Assembly: GCF_026151205.1 (NCBI RefSeq)
Contig: NC_087078.1
Location: 18,367,118 to 18,431,117, forward strand
Source of the DNA: Bolinopsis microptera
Lineage: Eukaryota > Ctenophora > Tentaculata > Lobata > Bolinopsidae
Length of the DNA: 64,000 nucleotides
Reading direction: 5' to 3'
Below, one piece after another: positions 1 through 51,063 of the stretch (positions are counted from its first letter, which is position 1; every line of letters starts with the position of its first letter). The translations under genes and the position numbers were made by a program. The notes beneath the pieces were generated by a model. It was not told where the DNA came from and searched no databases. It worked only from the letters and a program-made list of their open reading frames with translations.

Positions 1-3000
1 CGTGTTTACTGTACACACGTGACTTTCTGTATTTGCCCAATATTTCCTGATCTTGTGTAACCGATTGGTTGCCAGTCCATTTCCAGATTGACTCTGGGCC
101 GTACAATGTGTCCTCGTCAACAAATGTGTTCAAAGCCCTGATACTGTCAATCTCCAGACTAAAATCTCCTGTGATGGAAAAAAGGTTACTAGTTTAAGCA
201 TGAAATAACAGTTAATTAAATTAGTTGAGGTAATTTAAAGATTATTGTATAGTTTTGCGCTTGCCCACACATGTGTAAAGTATTCTTGACTTATTCAAAA
301 ACTAAGAGCCGGTTTTGACAGTTATGACTTATACATATCCAAAAAAACATATCCTGGACGAACGGAGAATGCTTGGTGTTGCCGGAAAGCGGAAACGTCA
401 ATTTGAAAACTTCAACTGTTTTCATTCTCCAACAAAAATGTAAATTATTTAACAACATAGCTCAAACTTCAACATACCAGGAGTTTGCTGGTCCGTAAAG
501 AATCCAATGGAGTAGAGCCTCATAGTTGCCGGCTTGTGAAGAATACCAGCAATCTGCTCGTGTTTCACGGGGTAAAACCGGTTAAACGGGATCTGAAACA
601 ATGTAGATAATTAATAAATAATTATAATTATAATTATAATTATAATTAATAAATAATCACACAGGTGATGTTTCATCACCTTGGTTAAGGACATTTCGAT
701 CTCATCGAGAAAGATACACAGCGCTCATATGATTTAAACAAGATTTTGAATTTATGATTTATCGCAAAATCAATATGTGGATTGGTGAGGTGTGCTGTAA
801 CTTACTCAACTTCATTTCATTAACAGACATGAGTGTTCATGTTGAGTAATGACTAATGGCAGAGAATTACAAATATTCGTTACAAAAACTGATGAACTGT
901 GATTACTCTTAAAATAAGAATTTTGCTTAAAATAATATCAAATTTCTCCATATGTGGTAAATCAGTTCTGCATTATTTAGCACGCTATTGCTAAGTTTAG
1001 CTTCTTAAGCTCCCAGTATCATGGTATTCCTAGTTTCTATTTCAAATCGAAGATATGAATTATCTTAGTTAAGTAAGAGAGACTACCAATACCCACGATT
1101 ACAACTATTCTCATCCCATGAAACCTAGGTGTAGGACAACCAATCTTAATCATAAACATCAAGCACAAAAATTCCATTCATAAAATTCAAAAAACAATAA
1201 ATCTAAAAGACCCATTTTTGAAAGAAATGACTCATGTTGAAAGTGAGTAATTAATAATTATATTTGTTAAACTATGAACTTCCAAATCTATTCAACTGTA
1301 CTCGACCAGTCCTCAATGCGCACTTTCGGAGAAAATTGCCACTTTATTGTAGATCTAGATTTTATATTTATATCATTATATAAAGGTATTTTGGTTTCCA
1401 TTTCACGGGCATGACGAACAGCAATGATTAGACCATTTTCGGTCGTAGCAGAATTTTCTTAGGCCCATTGTGGCGACCAGAGCTTGGTGCGATCGTGTTA
1501 AAAGGTTCTGTTCGCTTCTCATGCTTAAATTCATTGCCACCGTGACAATCTATAATGTCTTCTATATTTGCTGACATTTCAACTGACATTTCGACACAGC
1601 CAGCAAGGAATTTTTTCCCGCGATTAAGGTGAAATCTTCAGTCGAATTTTGTGCTTTTAAAGCCAGTGACTCGTACGACGTACATGGTTGAGATATTCTT
1701 CACGTTCACAATACAATTACATAATATAATATAATATATAATATAGACTGTATTGAATGAGCTTGAAGATATATCCTCGAGCTCATTCAAGAAACAACTT
1801 TGACCTCTTCGTCGCAAAAGCTTTATTTCTGAAATTTGAAATAACCTAAAGAAAGAAACCACACATCGACTTATCTTTTTAAAGATCCCGTACGTGTAGC
1901 AGGGATTAGTGTTGTTTTACTGTTTGTGCGGCGAAAGCACTTTTTGTCGGTCGTTAATTGCGATATTATTGATATTACACAGGATGTTTGGGGGGGGGGG
2001 GGGGTCAACCTCATTTTACCTCATTTTACCTCATCCCAATTTTGCCTTTCTTGGCTGCCCGAATGAGGTAAAATGAGGTTGACCCCCCCCCCCCCCCCCA
2101 TGTTTTTATGTCGAAAGGTGGGCGGACAATCGCTAGCCGCTATATAGTTATTATGAACGTCTTGCGTCGCCATTAAAATGCACAGTTAAGCATTTTACGG
2201 AGAAGAAAAAAGTGATATTTATAAATATTTAATGAATTGCAGTATAATTCAAATCGATAGCTTAATTCTAAATCTAATGCGTTGCATTTTATTAAAACTC
2301 TAAATCTGAAGCGTGGCATGGGTGTTTGTGATTTCAGACCATAATTTGGTAATATAATACAAATTATGTTGGAGTTTGCAGAACACACAGTATAAACTCA
2401 AATTCTTATCAATTCCAAATCTAAACCATTTTAATTTTCACGCTTTTACGGAAAACACCGGAAAATCTAATTCCAAATCTCTTAGCAGTGATGTTTTCGA
2501 GGACGATGTTTCTTGTAATGATTATTGGAGTAGAAAACAAACAAGTCAATCCCTCCTTAGGCCATGTTAAGGCTGCTTTGAAAAATGTGTCTCGGATAGA
2601 CCCATTTGAAGAACCCAAACATGTAACGCAACCTATGTTCCGTACATTCTTCACCACAAAGATTATGGAAGTAGCACAAACGAAACCAATAAATGTTATC
2701 ACTGCCTCCAATTGGACACGCTGTGGACAATACTGCACTTTCGTCGCAGATTGCCATATTTTGGAGTACCGGGCGAACACAAAAATCTGCAATCTTTACA
2801 AAAGAAGAAAATACCACGAAATAGCTGATAAAGCGAGCAATTCCTCCTACACCATATCTACAAAAGCCAACTTCATTACTCAGAAATGTGCGGAAGATTA
2901 CGGTGCTGTCTTGAGGGGCGAGCAGTTTATCATTGAATCACATGACAAGAAACTGTTCTTTTCAGAGGATAAAGGGGCTTTCTGGAAGAAGAAACGTATG

Positions 3001-6000
3001 ACAATGTGGCAATACAATAACGTAACCCAACAACTAAGAGTCCACGATTCTAACACTTGTCTAAGCTGGACAGCCAAACCTGACGACAAACCCGCTGACT
3101 TGAATTTTGAAACTTGCCTTGATAATCCAAACCAAAGGTTTGTACTGTATCAGACTGACCCCTGCGCTTGGTATCTGAAAACAGTGAATGACCGTGCGTT
3201 AAGTCTGGTGGAAGGTGAGTTCAGGTCGGGTGTTGAAAAAGATTTTGGGACTGAGGCAAAGCCGCAACCTGCGGCGAGCGAAAGTATGATACCATTACCG
3301 AAAGGAAACACATATAGCCAATGGGAAAACGGTAATAATGCAGATAGAGGCACGGACTTGAGAAACCTTTCATATTTTAAATTGGTAAGAACAACATTTG
3401 CGTGCTATAGATTCAGAGTTGTTAACGGAGAACTCCTGCCAAAAGAATACAACGCTCCCATCTTCCTTCAGGGTGATTCTATCACCATCCAGTGTAATGA
3501 AGACTACAGCATAAAACGAAAAGACGGACGCCAAAACCAGACAGTTTTAACTTGCAACAAGCGTGAATTAAGAAAAGTTGTGTGCAGGAGTGGGAAGAAG
3601 AGTGGTGTTCTCAAGTACACCGTGCTGTCCCTGGTGTTTGTTTGCTGCATTTTCCTGGGATACAAGTTTATTTGCCACCTTAGAGGCGGTGGTAGTGTTC
3701 CAGAAGATGCTGAGGCTGTGGAAAATAATGAGGAAAATTCACGGAATCCAGGAGATGTTTCTTATAAAGATTCAAACAATGATGACATTGTGAGCGACCC
3801 AAGATTCGGAGATTCGGTCACTGCAAACATCGTTGCAATTATCAATGAGAATAACAAGACGTTTGAGGACCAGAATGCAGATAGTAATCTTTTGGAATTA
3901 TGTGAGATGATCCCCAATCAACGTAACTCAACATTGCAGTACGAAGACGTAATCTATGAACCTGATTTTATCGATGCAAAATGGGATGAAGAAACTGATA
4001 AATCAACTGATGATAGCTTGCCGGTAGAGATGGATGAAGATGAAACCCCGGCAGAGGTTAACGATAGCTTGCAACTAGAAGCAATAGGGATAATATCATC
4101 ACCGTCGCTCGAGATCACCGCAGCGTCGTCACTAGAAATGGATAACAGTTCGGACACATTTGAATCGGTCAAATCATTATATTAGGGGAAAGAAAATCAT
4201 ATGCTTTATATTTCACTAGTAGGAACCCGCCTATATTTCATTGCTTTGTTGAGAATGTATTGCATTTTGTTTTATTGATTTTAATTTGAGTTAAAGTCTT
4301 ACAAAGTATTTCATTCTTTGCACGGTTGTTTTTGATCATTTCAACTGATGCTTTCTCCTAATTTGGTATTTTGGTATCCTTTTACTCAAAATCTACACCA
4401 TCTTTCCAAAACTATAAATATACGAAACACTCCTGAGAGAATATAATGGACGATATTGTTTAGAGACATCGCATATAAAATTAGTAATTTGCAAGCCAGT
4501 ATCATCAATAAATAAAGCCACCTGCCACGTCTTAATACAATCGACCACCCATAAAAGCACACACGCTAGAAACTCAAGTAAAATGTCTTTGTGAAGGAGC
4601 AGTACCTTTATCCTCTCCCAGTAAGGCCCACCTCTAGTCTGAAGATGTGCTGCCCAAAACTTAGTTCCCTCCTGTTGAGGATCTCCCAATCTTGACTTGA
4701 ACCATAACTGAAACGAATTTATGGTTTGATCCGGTGCTTGCCTGTTATAGGAAATAATTTTTAAGGACGCAATAATTTTGTGTCCCAATTATGACGCTCT
4801 AAGGACTAAGGAAGAATAGCAACTTCCGTCTCGTTTACTGATACTGATAATTCTTGGTATTAGATAATCTCGGCCAGAATTCATGGTTTCGCCACAAAAG
4901 CTAATGATCTTGTACACAACACCAATAAATGACGGCACTACAAGACCAGCTGGCGGTATTATGGGTACCTGTATTCGGTAAGGTCTGCCGTCACCACGGA
5001 CCCTGAACTCGAACTGGTGCCACCGGTGGAGATCAGTAGTTCTCTCACTCAGCTCAAGATCTCCCCACGTGTTCTGAAACGTACAAGTTTAGTACAGTAT
5101 TGAGAAATACACACACGGAATACACGTGAAATACAAAGGAAACGTCGGCATTGACAGCCGTGAATATTAATAACCGCTTCATTGCAAGTCGTTGTTCCAC
5201 AAGAACTATTAGACACTAAGTTACTAAGTATAAAATATACTTCTTAGAATAACGGTGGTACTAATAGGAAGGTTTAAAGACATGTGTAGTAGCCCGTGTA
5301 GACTGTAGCTACACTGTAGCACGAACCCAGAACGGATAAGATCTGATTCCAGCGTACCCAGTTGCGTCCCAGGGCCGGGAATGTTCGTTGTAGTAGGACG
5401 GAGTGGGGTCGATCTTTCCCTGGAACAAACAAACATATTAAATGCACAAGATATTATCATAGGAGATCGTTCATACATTACGTAAGTCAGATAAGAGGGG
5501 CGGGGAGGGCAGAGGGTTCGGAAATTTCTTACACTAGTGTGATGTTAATAGCTAATAGCATGATTAGTGGCTAACGGAGGGGCGTCTGAAAAGGTCAAAC
5601 TCTGGCTTATAATTTACTTATAACTTACTTATTAAGTTTGAATTTGAATACTGAGCGGTATTTTGTTTTAGTTTTACGTTTTACTTTATAGTTATAGAAT
5701 GTTTTCACCAAATAGTTTGTTGTGTAATGTATCAGCACCCCACTGTGATAACGTATAATATACGTTATATTATATTATTATGTATACAGTGCACTGTATT
5801 TCAGTTGGTTTACATCTCTATTATATTATACGGATTTGGCTGGATTTTATTTTATAAGTTTATTATCGCAAACCGCAGGAGTGAAGTGTACATGATAATG
5901 TTATGAGTACAACTACATCAAAGATCGGCAATTCTTTATTCTTGCTGTAAATATTAATTACGCCTCTAACAGTAACAACATCAAAATGTGTGTTAACTAA

Positions 6001-24017: not shown

Positions 24018-24502
24018 CGATTTGTAACTGCTAAGTAACACACTTTTAAAAATTCATTTCAATTGTCAAAACCAATTCATAATAAGTATAGAATGTGTTC
24101 ATCATGAAATGAAATGTAATATAAAGGTATTACCATTTATATCCTGCCTATCAAAATAATATTCAAGATAATAAAGATGAAATTCCCTAAAATATTACAA
24201 TTTCTATAAAACATTCTATAAAAATTCTATAGAACTCCAAATATGCAAACAATCTGAAAACTCCAATATACAATAAAAAATCATAGAAAAGGTTTACTAC
24301 AGAACAGTACCTGATGATAAAAGTTATTTAAGAAAATACAAAACAGTCATACCAAACAATCTGGGCAACATACAAGTAGAGACGGTGAAATAAACAGAGT
24401 GGGCAAAGATTGGGTAAAGATTGATCAACAACACAAGGAAGGTGGTCAAAGTAAGTAAAGTAAAGTACAAATTATGACATCAAAACATTACACATGTCTA
24501 CA

Positions 24503-24611
24503 TTGACCATTGTTAATGATCTGGCCCGGCGCGCGCTACTTCGTAGCACTTGCCAGAGAAGAAAGCGGCGCGCGCTACTTCGAAGAAATTTAGACGAGTA
24601 ACATCCGTCAA
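24503..24611. mobile_element. 109-bp MITE, TTGACC..GTCAA ends, 9-bp target duplication
   Basis: Begins TTGACCATTGTTA and ends TAACATCCGTCAA, imperfect inverted repeats. Both sides are flanked by ATGTCTACA, a 9-bp target duplication. The core holds two direct copies of GGCGCGCGCTACTTCG, strikingly GC-rich. A second copy at 48845-50381 carries a further insertion. Confidence 0.8.
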
Positions 24612-24940
24612 ATGTCTACAAAATATCATCGCACCATGTGAAAAATATATAAAAAATATTTTCCCACCAACATTTATCATTTATCATTTATAAAATACAA
24701 TATCATTAATTTCATTGTCATTGTAATTTTGTTGACGGCCCCAACGCGAACGTTAATGTGGCTCTTGCTATGTGTTGGTTCAGCCGAATTAATTATTATG
24801 TAATCAAGTTTATTTTTCTCGTTAGTTGTCATCCGGCTAAACATTAAGCAACTTATATTACAGTACCATTTATCAATTAGTATATCAAAATATGTCATTG
24901 TAATTTTGCATGGCTGAAATGTAACGCTTGAACCAACTGC

Positions 24941-25280
24941 GGCCAGGTAGCGCAGTTGGTTAGCCAGCTTTGCAATCGTGAGGTTGCGGGTTCAAATCCC
25001 ACTGCCTGCCTGGTCGTGGGGTGAGTGTCGTTGACATTCAGCTAAGGATCGTGAGTGGTCTATGCAGCCCCCTGGTCTACTCAGCCGAATACTCGAGAAA
25101 TCGGGTGTGAGGGTTAAATGAGGAGCTGCACATTGCAGCAAAGTCTCGGGCGAAGAAAGTATGGTACACACTACCTTAACCGTCACTGGCTAAAAACAAA
25201 TCCTTCGGCTTCCTGTAATTGGCTGGTTGCACTTGTGTAACAATATGGCTGTTGGAATACTCCGAAGTAAAATAAGTGTC
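24941..25280 (+). mobile_element. tRNA-derived SINE
   Basis: The 5' part is tRNA-like: A box TAGCGCAGTTGG and B box GGTTCAAATCC, with a T-arm stem GCGGG/CCCAC and TGC in the anticodon position. A roughly 260-bp unrelated body follows. A second copy, on the minus strand, lies at 50708-50382 and 48844-48804. The head lacks a proper anticodon stem, so it is not a working tRNA. Confidence 0.85.
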
Positions 25281-25294
25281 TAGATAAAAAAAAA

Positions 25295-48342: not shown

Positions 48343-48844
48343 TCCTTCCTCGACGTTTTGCTGTTACAAACAGTACCACTGTCTTTTGCGACTAAAGCGA
48401 CTTCAACTGTTCGTCTTTATGCTCCAACAGCTTGGTTATTTTTGTTTTGTCTACTAGTCTCTCTTATTTGTTTTGAGGCACTCGATAGTTCCGATTTAGT
48501 TTATTTGCGTTTATGATTACATACATAACCTACTTTTTTAATATACATTTTTTTCAACAATATATATATATATACATTCAATTAAATCAAGTGATGCAAT
48601 CGGCAGAGCTTATACTCAGGTAACGGAAATTTTCCACTGCTACCAATATTATAATTATTGTGTGTTTAATTCTTTTGTCCAAATGCTTCCTGCATTGATC
48701 TAATCCTATGGTTTAAATGATACTAGGGAATATTGCTTTGATGTCGAATGATGCATGTATCACTGTTCATGTTTCTGCTTCAATAATAACAATTTTTTTA
48801 TCAAGACACTTATTTTACTTTGGAGTATTCCAACAGCCACATTG

Positions 48845-50381
48845 TTGACCATTGTTAATGATCTGGCCCGGCGCGCGCTACTTCGTAGCACTTGCCATCG
48901 GGCATTTTGAGAAGAAAGCGGCGCGCGCTACTTCGAAGAAATTTAGACAAGTACGGGTATCGGCCTTACAAAATGACAGGCCTCACAAAATGACAGCCCA
49001 CATAGACAATGCTGTATCTTAGGTTCCCTATACATTGAACCCTATTCCTTTTACTGTATGAAAGAAAAAGCATTAATTAACACTTCCCAAGGAATGATAA
49101 TGACATAGAATCTATATTTCTTACATAAATATGGACGTTTTTGCTGTTCAGTCATTGCCCCGCCTAACTGTTACCCAGAATGGAGACCAAAGTTTAGAAT
49201 TTAACCCCAGAAAACCAGGTACTACCATGACTTATGTCAATCAAAGACTACTCTGGTCAAATAAAAAACTGATTTAGTGACTTAGGTAGAAGAAATGACA
49301 AAAAAATGACCTAGCCTCACAAAATGACAGTGTTATGCCTCACAAAATGACAGTTTTATTTTATGATACAAAGATGGCATATTTATATTGGATGCCCCTT
49401 GCCTAATTATTGGTATTCTTAAAACCAGTAAGCTTATGATGAGCCTAAATGTGTTTGTTTGATCATCAATTTTGATCAAAATGCCTCACAAAATGACACC
49501 GAAAAGCCTTACAAAATGACAATGTTTCAGATTGAATTACTTTCATCATCTAAAATGGATCAGAAGCAGTCAATACAAGAAGGAGTTAAAAATAATCAAA
49601 ATCTGACAGTTAACAATCAAGTAGCATTACAAAAGTGCAGTTCTGATATCAAAACTTTGATTTCAAACTCTTTGATTTCAAACTCTGATTTCAAAACTCA
49701 ACGAAATAAAGCTTCTATTTTGTGAAAGCAGAGAGTAATAAAAACTCCTAAAACATGTCAAACGTTAACTAAACACTTAAAAGTGATCTATCCAGTCATA
49801 GAAAATATCAAATATAACCAAATACTGTGTTCAAGTATGAAAACAAAAAATGATAAAAAATGTTCCTTTTTTAATATATTCTGGTAAAAACAGAACTGGT
49901 ATAATATAAACAACATATATATCTAACAGTAAGACACGTGAAAGAATAATGAAACTTTTTCCCAAATCGGATTTGAAGTGATGCCGTTTTGGGTTGTCAT
50001 TTTGTAAGGCACTATCTCACGTGAAATTGCCCAAGTTTTTTTAATCATCCTTTTTGCTGTAAAATCTATTCTAATCTTCAATCTATTATATTTATCTAAC
50101 TGTCCTAGGTGAAATCAAATTGCTATAGGCTGCTGTTAAAAAATGACAGCCGTGACGAAATTGTCATTTTGTAAGGCATGTTTTTTTGGAAGATTTCAAA
50201 GATGACAATTTTTATCGCAAAATTTACGGTTTTTCAATCAAATCAACCCCCGGGAAGAAAAATATACCTGTTGAACTACCTATCTGGATAATAAAACATG
50301 AACAAAACTCATTTTTGTGCATTTCAGAGCCATCTCCTTTTTCGTGTCATTTTGTAAGGCCGATACCCGTAACATCCGTCA
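48845..50381. mobile_element. TTGACC MITE copy 2, itself interrupted
   Basis: Left end TTGACCATTGTTA at 48845 and right end TAACATCCGTCAA at 50381 match the 109-bp element at 24503-24611. CCACATTG (8 bp, or 9 if the adjoining T counts) flanks both sides and restores the SINE when one copy is removed. A 1.4-kb element sits inside at 48954. Confidence 0.8.
48954..50368. mobile_element. 1.4-kb non-autonomous TA-flanked element with mirrored 16-bp motif array
   Basis: Ends CGGGTATCGGCCTTAC and GTAAGGCCGATACCCG are exact inverses. TA lies on each side, and removing the element with one TA restores the host MITE (GAGTAACATCC in the other copy). The motif GCCT(T/C)ACAAAATGACA occurs six times direct in the left half (48963, 48980, 49314, 49337, 49483, 49506) and three times inverted in the right half (49995, 50162, 50344). 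No transposase ORF is present. The motifs look like transposase binding sites. Confidence 0.8.
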
Positions 50382-51063
50382 ACCACATTGTTACACAAGT
50401 GCAACCAGCCAATTACAGGAAGCCGAAGGATTTATTTTTAGCCAGTGACGGTTAAGGTAGTGTGTACCATACTTTCTTCGCCCGAGACTTTGCTGCAATG
50501 TGCAGCTCCTCATTTAACCCTCACACCCGATTTCTCGAGTATTCGGCTGAGTAGACCGGGGGGGGGGGGGGGGGGGGCTGCATAGACCACTCAGGATCCT
50601 TAGCTGAACGTCAACGACGCTCACCCCACGACCAGGCAGACAGTGGGATTTGAACCCACAACCTCACGATTGCAAAGCTGGCGTTCTAACCAACTGCGCT
50701 ACCTGGCCGTTAAAAAAAAAAAATAATAAATTAATGTTGTTTTTATACAGCACCAAAAGGTTAAATAATTTAAATTTAACCCTTATGCTCAGCTGTAAAT
50801 GATACTTAAAAGACAGTAGAGATTGCGCATCTCGCCCTGGACATGGACGGGGGTGAAACTATCAAGAAAAGAGAAGTTTTTAACTTAACTGCAAATGAGC
50901 GCATTTTGTTAGAAATATTCTAGCCAAGTGAAACTCCGGTTTAGTTGTATGTACGAAACCTGTAAAACAAAATACTTTACTACACAATAATAATAACTTA
51001 ATTCCATATTAACCCAATTACATATAAACCACCTAATAAATAACAACTATAAATATCCTGACA

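Follow-up and report, generated by a model that had tools for sequence, protein, structure and literature searches.

How a SINE, a MITE and a 1.4-kb element came to lie one within another, and in what order, is the question raised by a locus in the ctenophore Bolinopsis microptera. The window, that is, the whole stretch of DNA that was analyzed, is 64,000 nucleotides long (G000:C7:18367118-18431117), and repeat families were searched for in 264.65 Mb of genome. Among host genes, a glutamate-receptor ligand-binding family gave 32 genome matches, and for 13 of these the open frame measured 650-990 aa. Three (L122-L124) were fetched, and two were compared with the PDB, where L123 matched ML032222a best (ML names being those of Mnemiopsis) and L122 a kainate receptor.

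Where duplications can be read, nested insertions are a routine means of ordering repeat activity, and the present case is a clean one; the nest of SINE, MITE and 1.4-kb element is real and ordinary in kind. We consider it highly probable that it arose by three successive insertions and that its inner element is a relative of a DDE_1 pogo-like transposon, moved in trans.

Architecture of the nest and order of insertion

The outermost layer is a split, putatively tRNA-headed SINE on the minus strand. It extends from its tail, a T-run at 48793-48799, to about 50711 (the right end is approximate). Its head, GGCC, occupies 50705-50708, after which the plus strand reads GTT and an A-run. These limits come from aligning the rejoined flanks to the family consensus and to an uninterrupted copy at 24941-25288, which is on the plus strand, in the opposite orientation; the initial annotation had given a span of 48804-50708. 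Within the SINE, plus-strand copies of an 8-bp duplication, CCACATTG, are found at 48837-48844 and 50383-50390, where the uninterrupted SINE copy has CCATATTG. They enclose the MITE, also read on the plus strand, whose left part (TTGACC end, one TA included) occupies 48845-48953 and whose right part (CGTCAA end, second TA included) occupies 50370-50382, or 50372-50382 without the TA. The TA duplication, at 48952-48953 and 50370-50371 on the plus strand, flanks the inner element, a non-autonomous TA transposon of 1,416 bp with 25-bp perfect inverted ends (48954-50369, plus strand). The right ends of these elements, first given as 50368 and 50381, were one base short of the correct 50369 and 50382. 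An uninterrupted MITE copy on the plus strand at 24503-24611 has a 9-bp duplication, ATGTCTACA, at 24494-24502 and 24612-24620. The MITE duplication first quoted as 8-9 bp is thus exactly 8 bp at the split site and 9 bp at this copy. As had been noticed, these two uninterrupted copies provide empty sites of both outer layers in the same window.

The excision proposed as a check was carried out and gave the expected result. Removal of the inner element with one TA leaves a MITE of 120 bp, the same as the copy at 24503-24611 but for a short internal insertion and one substitution, and removal of the MITE with one CCACATTG then gives an unbroken SINE. The rejoined SINE differs from the consensus of 30 loci at 9 of 345 aligned bases (2.6%); beyond this, 4 bases are inserted and a C run is extended by 14 bases. 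Divergence from the family consensus is 14/1416 (0.99%) for the inner element and 2/111 for the MITE, the latter count depending on the alignment (1 substitution and a 9-base insertion, or 2/111 with the gap placed otherwise). Divergence falls in the order SINE, MITE, inner element, as nesting requires, with MITE counts too small to weigh much. The MITE and SINE reference copies were the best-scoring matches and are therefore biased towards young copies.

Since two clean duplications are present, and since uninterrupted copies of both outer layers occur in the window, the order of SINE, then MITE, then 1.4-kb element stands as originally read. The accompanying statement that every target duplication is readable holds for the MITE (8 bp) and the inner element (TA); "every" is too wide because no clear duplication marks the insertion of the SINE itself. 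All three layers are repetitive, as they would be if the assembly had joined unrelated repeats, but such an artefact is hardly credible beside the exact 8-bp and TA duplications, the empty sites and the consistent order of divergence.

The history that we propose would begin with retroposition of the putatively tRNA-headed SINE. In a second step, a MITE of about 111 bp would have transposed into the SINE and generated the 8-bp duplication, and in a third, the 1.4-kb non-autonomous DNA transposon would have entered a TA within the MITE. This last element would have been mobilized in trans, by cut-and-paste, by a DDE_1 pogo-like transposase that may bind a 16-bp motif repeated facing inward from both sides. 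The initial annotation had overlooked two points: the inner element derives by deletion from a coding transposon, and the outermost layer is not bordered by a clear duplication.

The SINE family

The SINE resembles tRNA-derived SINEs in its A-tail. Its head contains a stretch, GGTTCAAATCC, that by eye is box-B-like; a tRNA search of the window gave no match by ARAGORN or Rfam. The A-tail is accompanied by a high copy number, with 1,072 candidates genome-wide, 295 exact heads and 216 exact tails. The 30 loci fetched, which were the best of 40 scored among the 1,072 candidates, have 0-2 differences from their consensus; they include L069, the window's own 24941 copy, which enters twice (also as W24). 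Young copies (L069-L098, and 2816-3181 of the transposon locus L017 described below) often bear T-runs.

Anchored end matches gave no clear sign of a SINE target duplication, averaging 2.55 bases where mismatched pairs average 2.15 (s.e. 0.34, n=31). A looser test, based on the longest match, was above chance (5.39 versus 4.48, s.e. 0.20), and the longest match was at least 7 in 5 of 31 loci versus 4% expected. The longest of all, 14 at L081, involves a unit that is repeated again in its flank, and the end matches of L084 and L086 (8 each) represent a single insertion in a copied stretch. The SINE insertions are without clear target duplication; because the looser test exceeds chance, short or displaced duplications may exist. 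At the split SINE, TTATTATT is present on both sides, with a run of Ts between it and the head, and may or may not be a duplication.

Empty sites overall allow a SINE duplication of 0 to about 4 bp, with one case of 6, imperfect. L017, compared with its counterpart on C1, has neither duplication nor loss, and TT is added. Set against 40 repeat places whose match continues across the join without a break, L090 is ambiguous by at most 2 bp, and L080 compared with L018 allows at most 4 bp, with a T-run added. The case of 6 is L077 versus L095, where extra bases on the 3' side may conceal a 6-base imperfect duplication. In L094 versus the window, about a dozen target bases are replaced, in an ambiguous alignment. 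Inverted copies of the SINE start (10-17 bases) were found at the 5' junction in 3 of 31 loci, namely L094, L070 and the 24941 copy.

In the accessible text of a published study, target duplications peak at 13-15 bp for L1-clade LINEs and at 3-5 bp for L2-clade LINEs, with CR1 similar (PMC4245944); the short 3-5 bp duplications of L2- and CR1-type LINEs may also apply to this SINE. Insertion was likely by target-primed reverse transcription by some LINE, the 5' side being closed by end joining. When the SINE tail was compared with nine long inner-element copies, including L009 and L013, the sole match was 23 bases in L018 (E 0.15). A young SINE family whose insertions are without clear duplication is one of the additions made by this analysis.

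The MITE family

The MITE sample comprised 21 copies, namely the window's uninterrupted copy and 20 of the 40 that had been scored. Duplications are exact in 15 of the 21 (nine of 9 bp and six of 8 bp) and have one mismatch in three; in the other three none was found. The genome contains 2,737 exact MITE ends, and a GC-rich 16-mer of the MITE occurs in it 2,773 times, with reversed controls of 0 in each case. With two ends and two 16-mers per copy, these counts correspond to about 1,370 MITE copies, and they suggest that MITE and 16-mer move together. The features of the class are present, namely short length (~111 bp), inverted ends, a near-constant duplication length and many copies. MITEs with 8-9 bp duplications include Merlin, Mutator, hAT and P types. 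This MITE is like them in its length of about 111 bp, at which no ORF is expected, and in its imperfect inverted ends, TTGACnnnTGTTAnT, but it has no coding partner among those sought here. The partner search used an end pattern excluding the common interior, which occurred at 55 places (control 4). Twenty of these 55 variant ends, at about 400 bases each, were MITE variants, nested copies or unrelated, and two of the 20, followed over 5-7 kb, had no second MITE end and no transposase recognized among their ORFs by inspection without a Pfam scan.

The MITE bears two copies of GGCGCGCGCTACTTCG, and its CpG count is 11.7 per 100 versus 2.8 in the window. According to the accessible part of a study of Mnemiopsis, loop anchors in that ctenophore use a motif, rich in GC and containing two CpGs, to which CTEP1/2 bind, and more than 90% of looping promoters contain a DNA transposon insertion (PMC12221973). 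The CpG-rich module of the MITE might conceivably correspond to that motif.

The MITE might instead have inserted into the SINE elsewhere, the older composite then being copied to this locus as one unit. Composite copying does occur here: L051, L064 and L066 share almost identical sequence to the left and to the right of the MITE, and the common SINE insertion of L084 and L086 lies inside a copied stretch. Nevertheless, we regard this alternative as quite improbable. All 30 fetched SINE loci are unbroken, which is a weak argument since the loci had been chosen for their close match to an unbroken SINE, and the order of events would be the same in either case. We retain three successive insertions. 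A second MITE, at L067, appears from its flanks to sit in a SINE. A different repeat (CTGGGCCGCGCTCAGCCTGTCATTCCGCC), in variant forms, is seen as host or guest of the MITE at L051, L064, L066, L102, L108, L113 and L118; these are further nests. L101 and L106 have a lone 19-base MITE end with TTAGGTA on both sides; the flanks of the two places agree, and the end may be what was left by an excision and then copied along with a larger repeat.

The inner element and its coding relative

The 25-bp end of the inner element has 143 matches genome-wide at up to 2 mismatches (reversed control 0), and among the first 100 of these several end pairs are more than 1.5 kb apart. Forty-one stretches were examined, 34 with both ends present and 7 with one, L014 and L015 being the two ends of one long copy. 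TA is found on both sides in 34/34 two-ended copies and at the visible end in 7/7 one-ended stretches; no flanking position other than TA is fixed among the 34. Genome copies with different ends had been named beforehand as the observation that would count against the family definitions; in the genome copies fetched the ends were identical, and the claim was not refuted. Two of the copies, L009 (894-2435) and L013 (1239-4154), contain reverse-transcriptase ORFs of 513 and 971 aa, respectively.

One locus, L017, holds a transposon of 5,667 bp (5.67 kb). Bases 1-669 of the inner element align to L017 101-764 at 95% identity, and bases 670-1416 to L017 4996-5767 at 89%. The junction, at 49622-49623 of the window, marks an internal deletion of what in the 5.67-kb relative is the coding part. 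This alignment shows the inner element to be related to the coding transposon and to have lost its interior; since both identities are lower than those of most short copies to each other, L017 counts as a relative and not as the direct parent. On C1 there is another coding copy, which matches L017 at 98-99% identity over three blocks of 622, 1,981 and 2,392 bases. It carries further insertions, and there was no match to the left end of L017 in the stretch fetched.

One could suppose that the 1.4-kb element belongs to a separate family, related to the L017 transposon by similar ends alone, given that the two-ended copies (~1.3-1.5 kb) are too short for a transposase and that only two transposase-bearing copies were found. 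However, the 669 and 747 aligned bases extend beyond the ends and flank a single internal gap, and the C1 copy aligns with L017 along most of its length. The L017 alignment comes close to refuting a separate family, which we hold to be very improbable, and a deletion derivative is the reading that we follow.

Between the aligned flanks, L017 has three ORFs on one strand, of 568, 307 and 111 aa. The first matches the Pfam domain DDE_1 at residues 289-402 (26.3 bits versus a cut-off of 22), the second has no Pfam match, and the third has a sub-threshold match to the RanBP zinc ribbon. In the transposase, 36 residues separate the D of TDGH from the D of PLDQ, which by their pattern we take to be the second and third catalytic residues. 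No match to CENP-B_N or HTH_Tnp_Tc5 was obtained up to a limit of E = 10, with tool filters that drop most matches above 0.1; because there is no match to an N-terminal DNA-binding domain, we call the protein only pogo-like. A PDB search with the transposase found no relative (best E 0.31). Most of the 77 genome matches to the transposase are to a SINE-derived tail, and relatives of 50-54% identity are present on C11 and C12. The tail arises because a SINE lies inside L017 at 2821-3167 (copy region 2816-3181), so that the last ~38 transposase codons are in the SINE and its tail; in C1 the transposase frame has three indels. Both of the transposase-bearing copies found (L017 and C1) are disrupted, and thus a working source is only putative. 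Synonymous/non-synonymous differences between L017 and C1 are 1/4 in the transposase, 1/5 in the 307-aa ORF and 0/1 in the 111-aa ORF (284 of 336 bases aligned), too few to judge; they give no support for recent purifying selection.

The inner element also carries a 16-bp motif, GCCTYACAAAATGACA, with six plus-strand copies in 48963-49521 (starts 48963, 48980, 49314, 49337, 49483 and 49506) and three minus-strand copies in 49995-50360 (starts 49995, 50162 and 50345). Expressed as GCCTTACAAAATGACA with 0-1 mismatch, the motif is present in nine copies in the window's inner element, first six forward and then three reverse. With up to 3 mismatches allowed, 200 shuffles average 0.02 matches, and a single match falls in the window outside the element. 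At up to 2 mismatches, 30 of the 34 two-ended copies have seven forward and then three reverse motifs, three have six and three (the window copy among them) and one has five and three, the forward-then-reverse order being kept in all 34. The seventh forward motif sits to the right of the deletion junction and is absent from the window copy. L017 has ten motifs and C1 eight (at up to 3 mismatches). We infer that the motifs are candidate transposase sites.

Comparison with pogo elements

The B. microptera element has in common with pogo and the IS630-Tc1-mariner elements its TA duplication and DDE_1 domain. The ends of pogo elements start CAGT, whereas those of this element start CGGG; the inward arrays of the 16-bp motif and the two further ORFs (307 aa and 111 aa) are features of this element. 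In the accessible text of a 2020 survey of pogo, type 1 inverted ends are up to 40 bp and sizes are 1.2-5.2 kb (PMC7386202). The 25-bp ends fall within type 1 and the 36-residue D-D spacing within the survey's pogo range, and at about 5.3 kb without its SINE the element is at the top of the size range (PMC7386202). It has no CENP-B_N or HTH_Tnp_Tc5 match, and Mover transposases are likewise described there as having no detectable N-terminal DNA-binding domain (PMC7386202).

It is quite possible, if not quite the outcome that we would favor, that these elements form a distinct ctenophore pogo-like lineage. Such a lineage would be marked by a length of about 5.3 kb without the SINE, three same-strand ORFs, one of which may encode a zinc-ribbon accessory protein, and seven forward and three reverse transposase sites in an array that the short derivatives retain. 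Among the titles listed in searches of open-licence papers, none was on these repeat families.

What this locus adds is a relative with coding capacity for a deletion family that has diverged little, together with candidate transposase binding arrays. The 2020 survey, in its accessible text, gives pogo as absent from Ctenophora, and a pogo-like element in a ctenophore adds to that account (PMC7386202).
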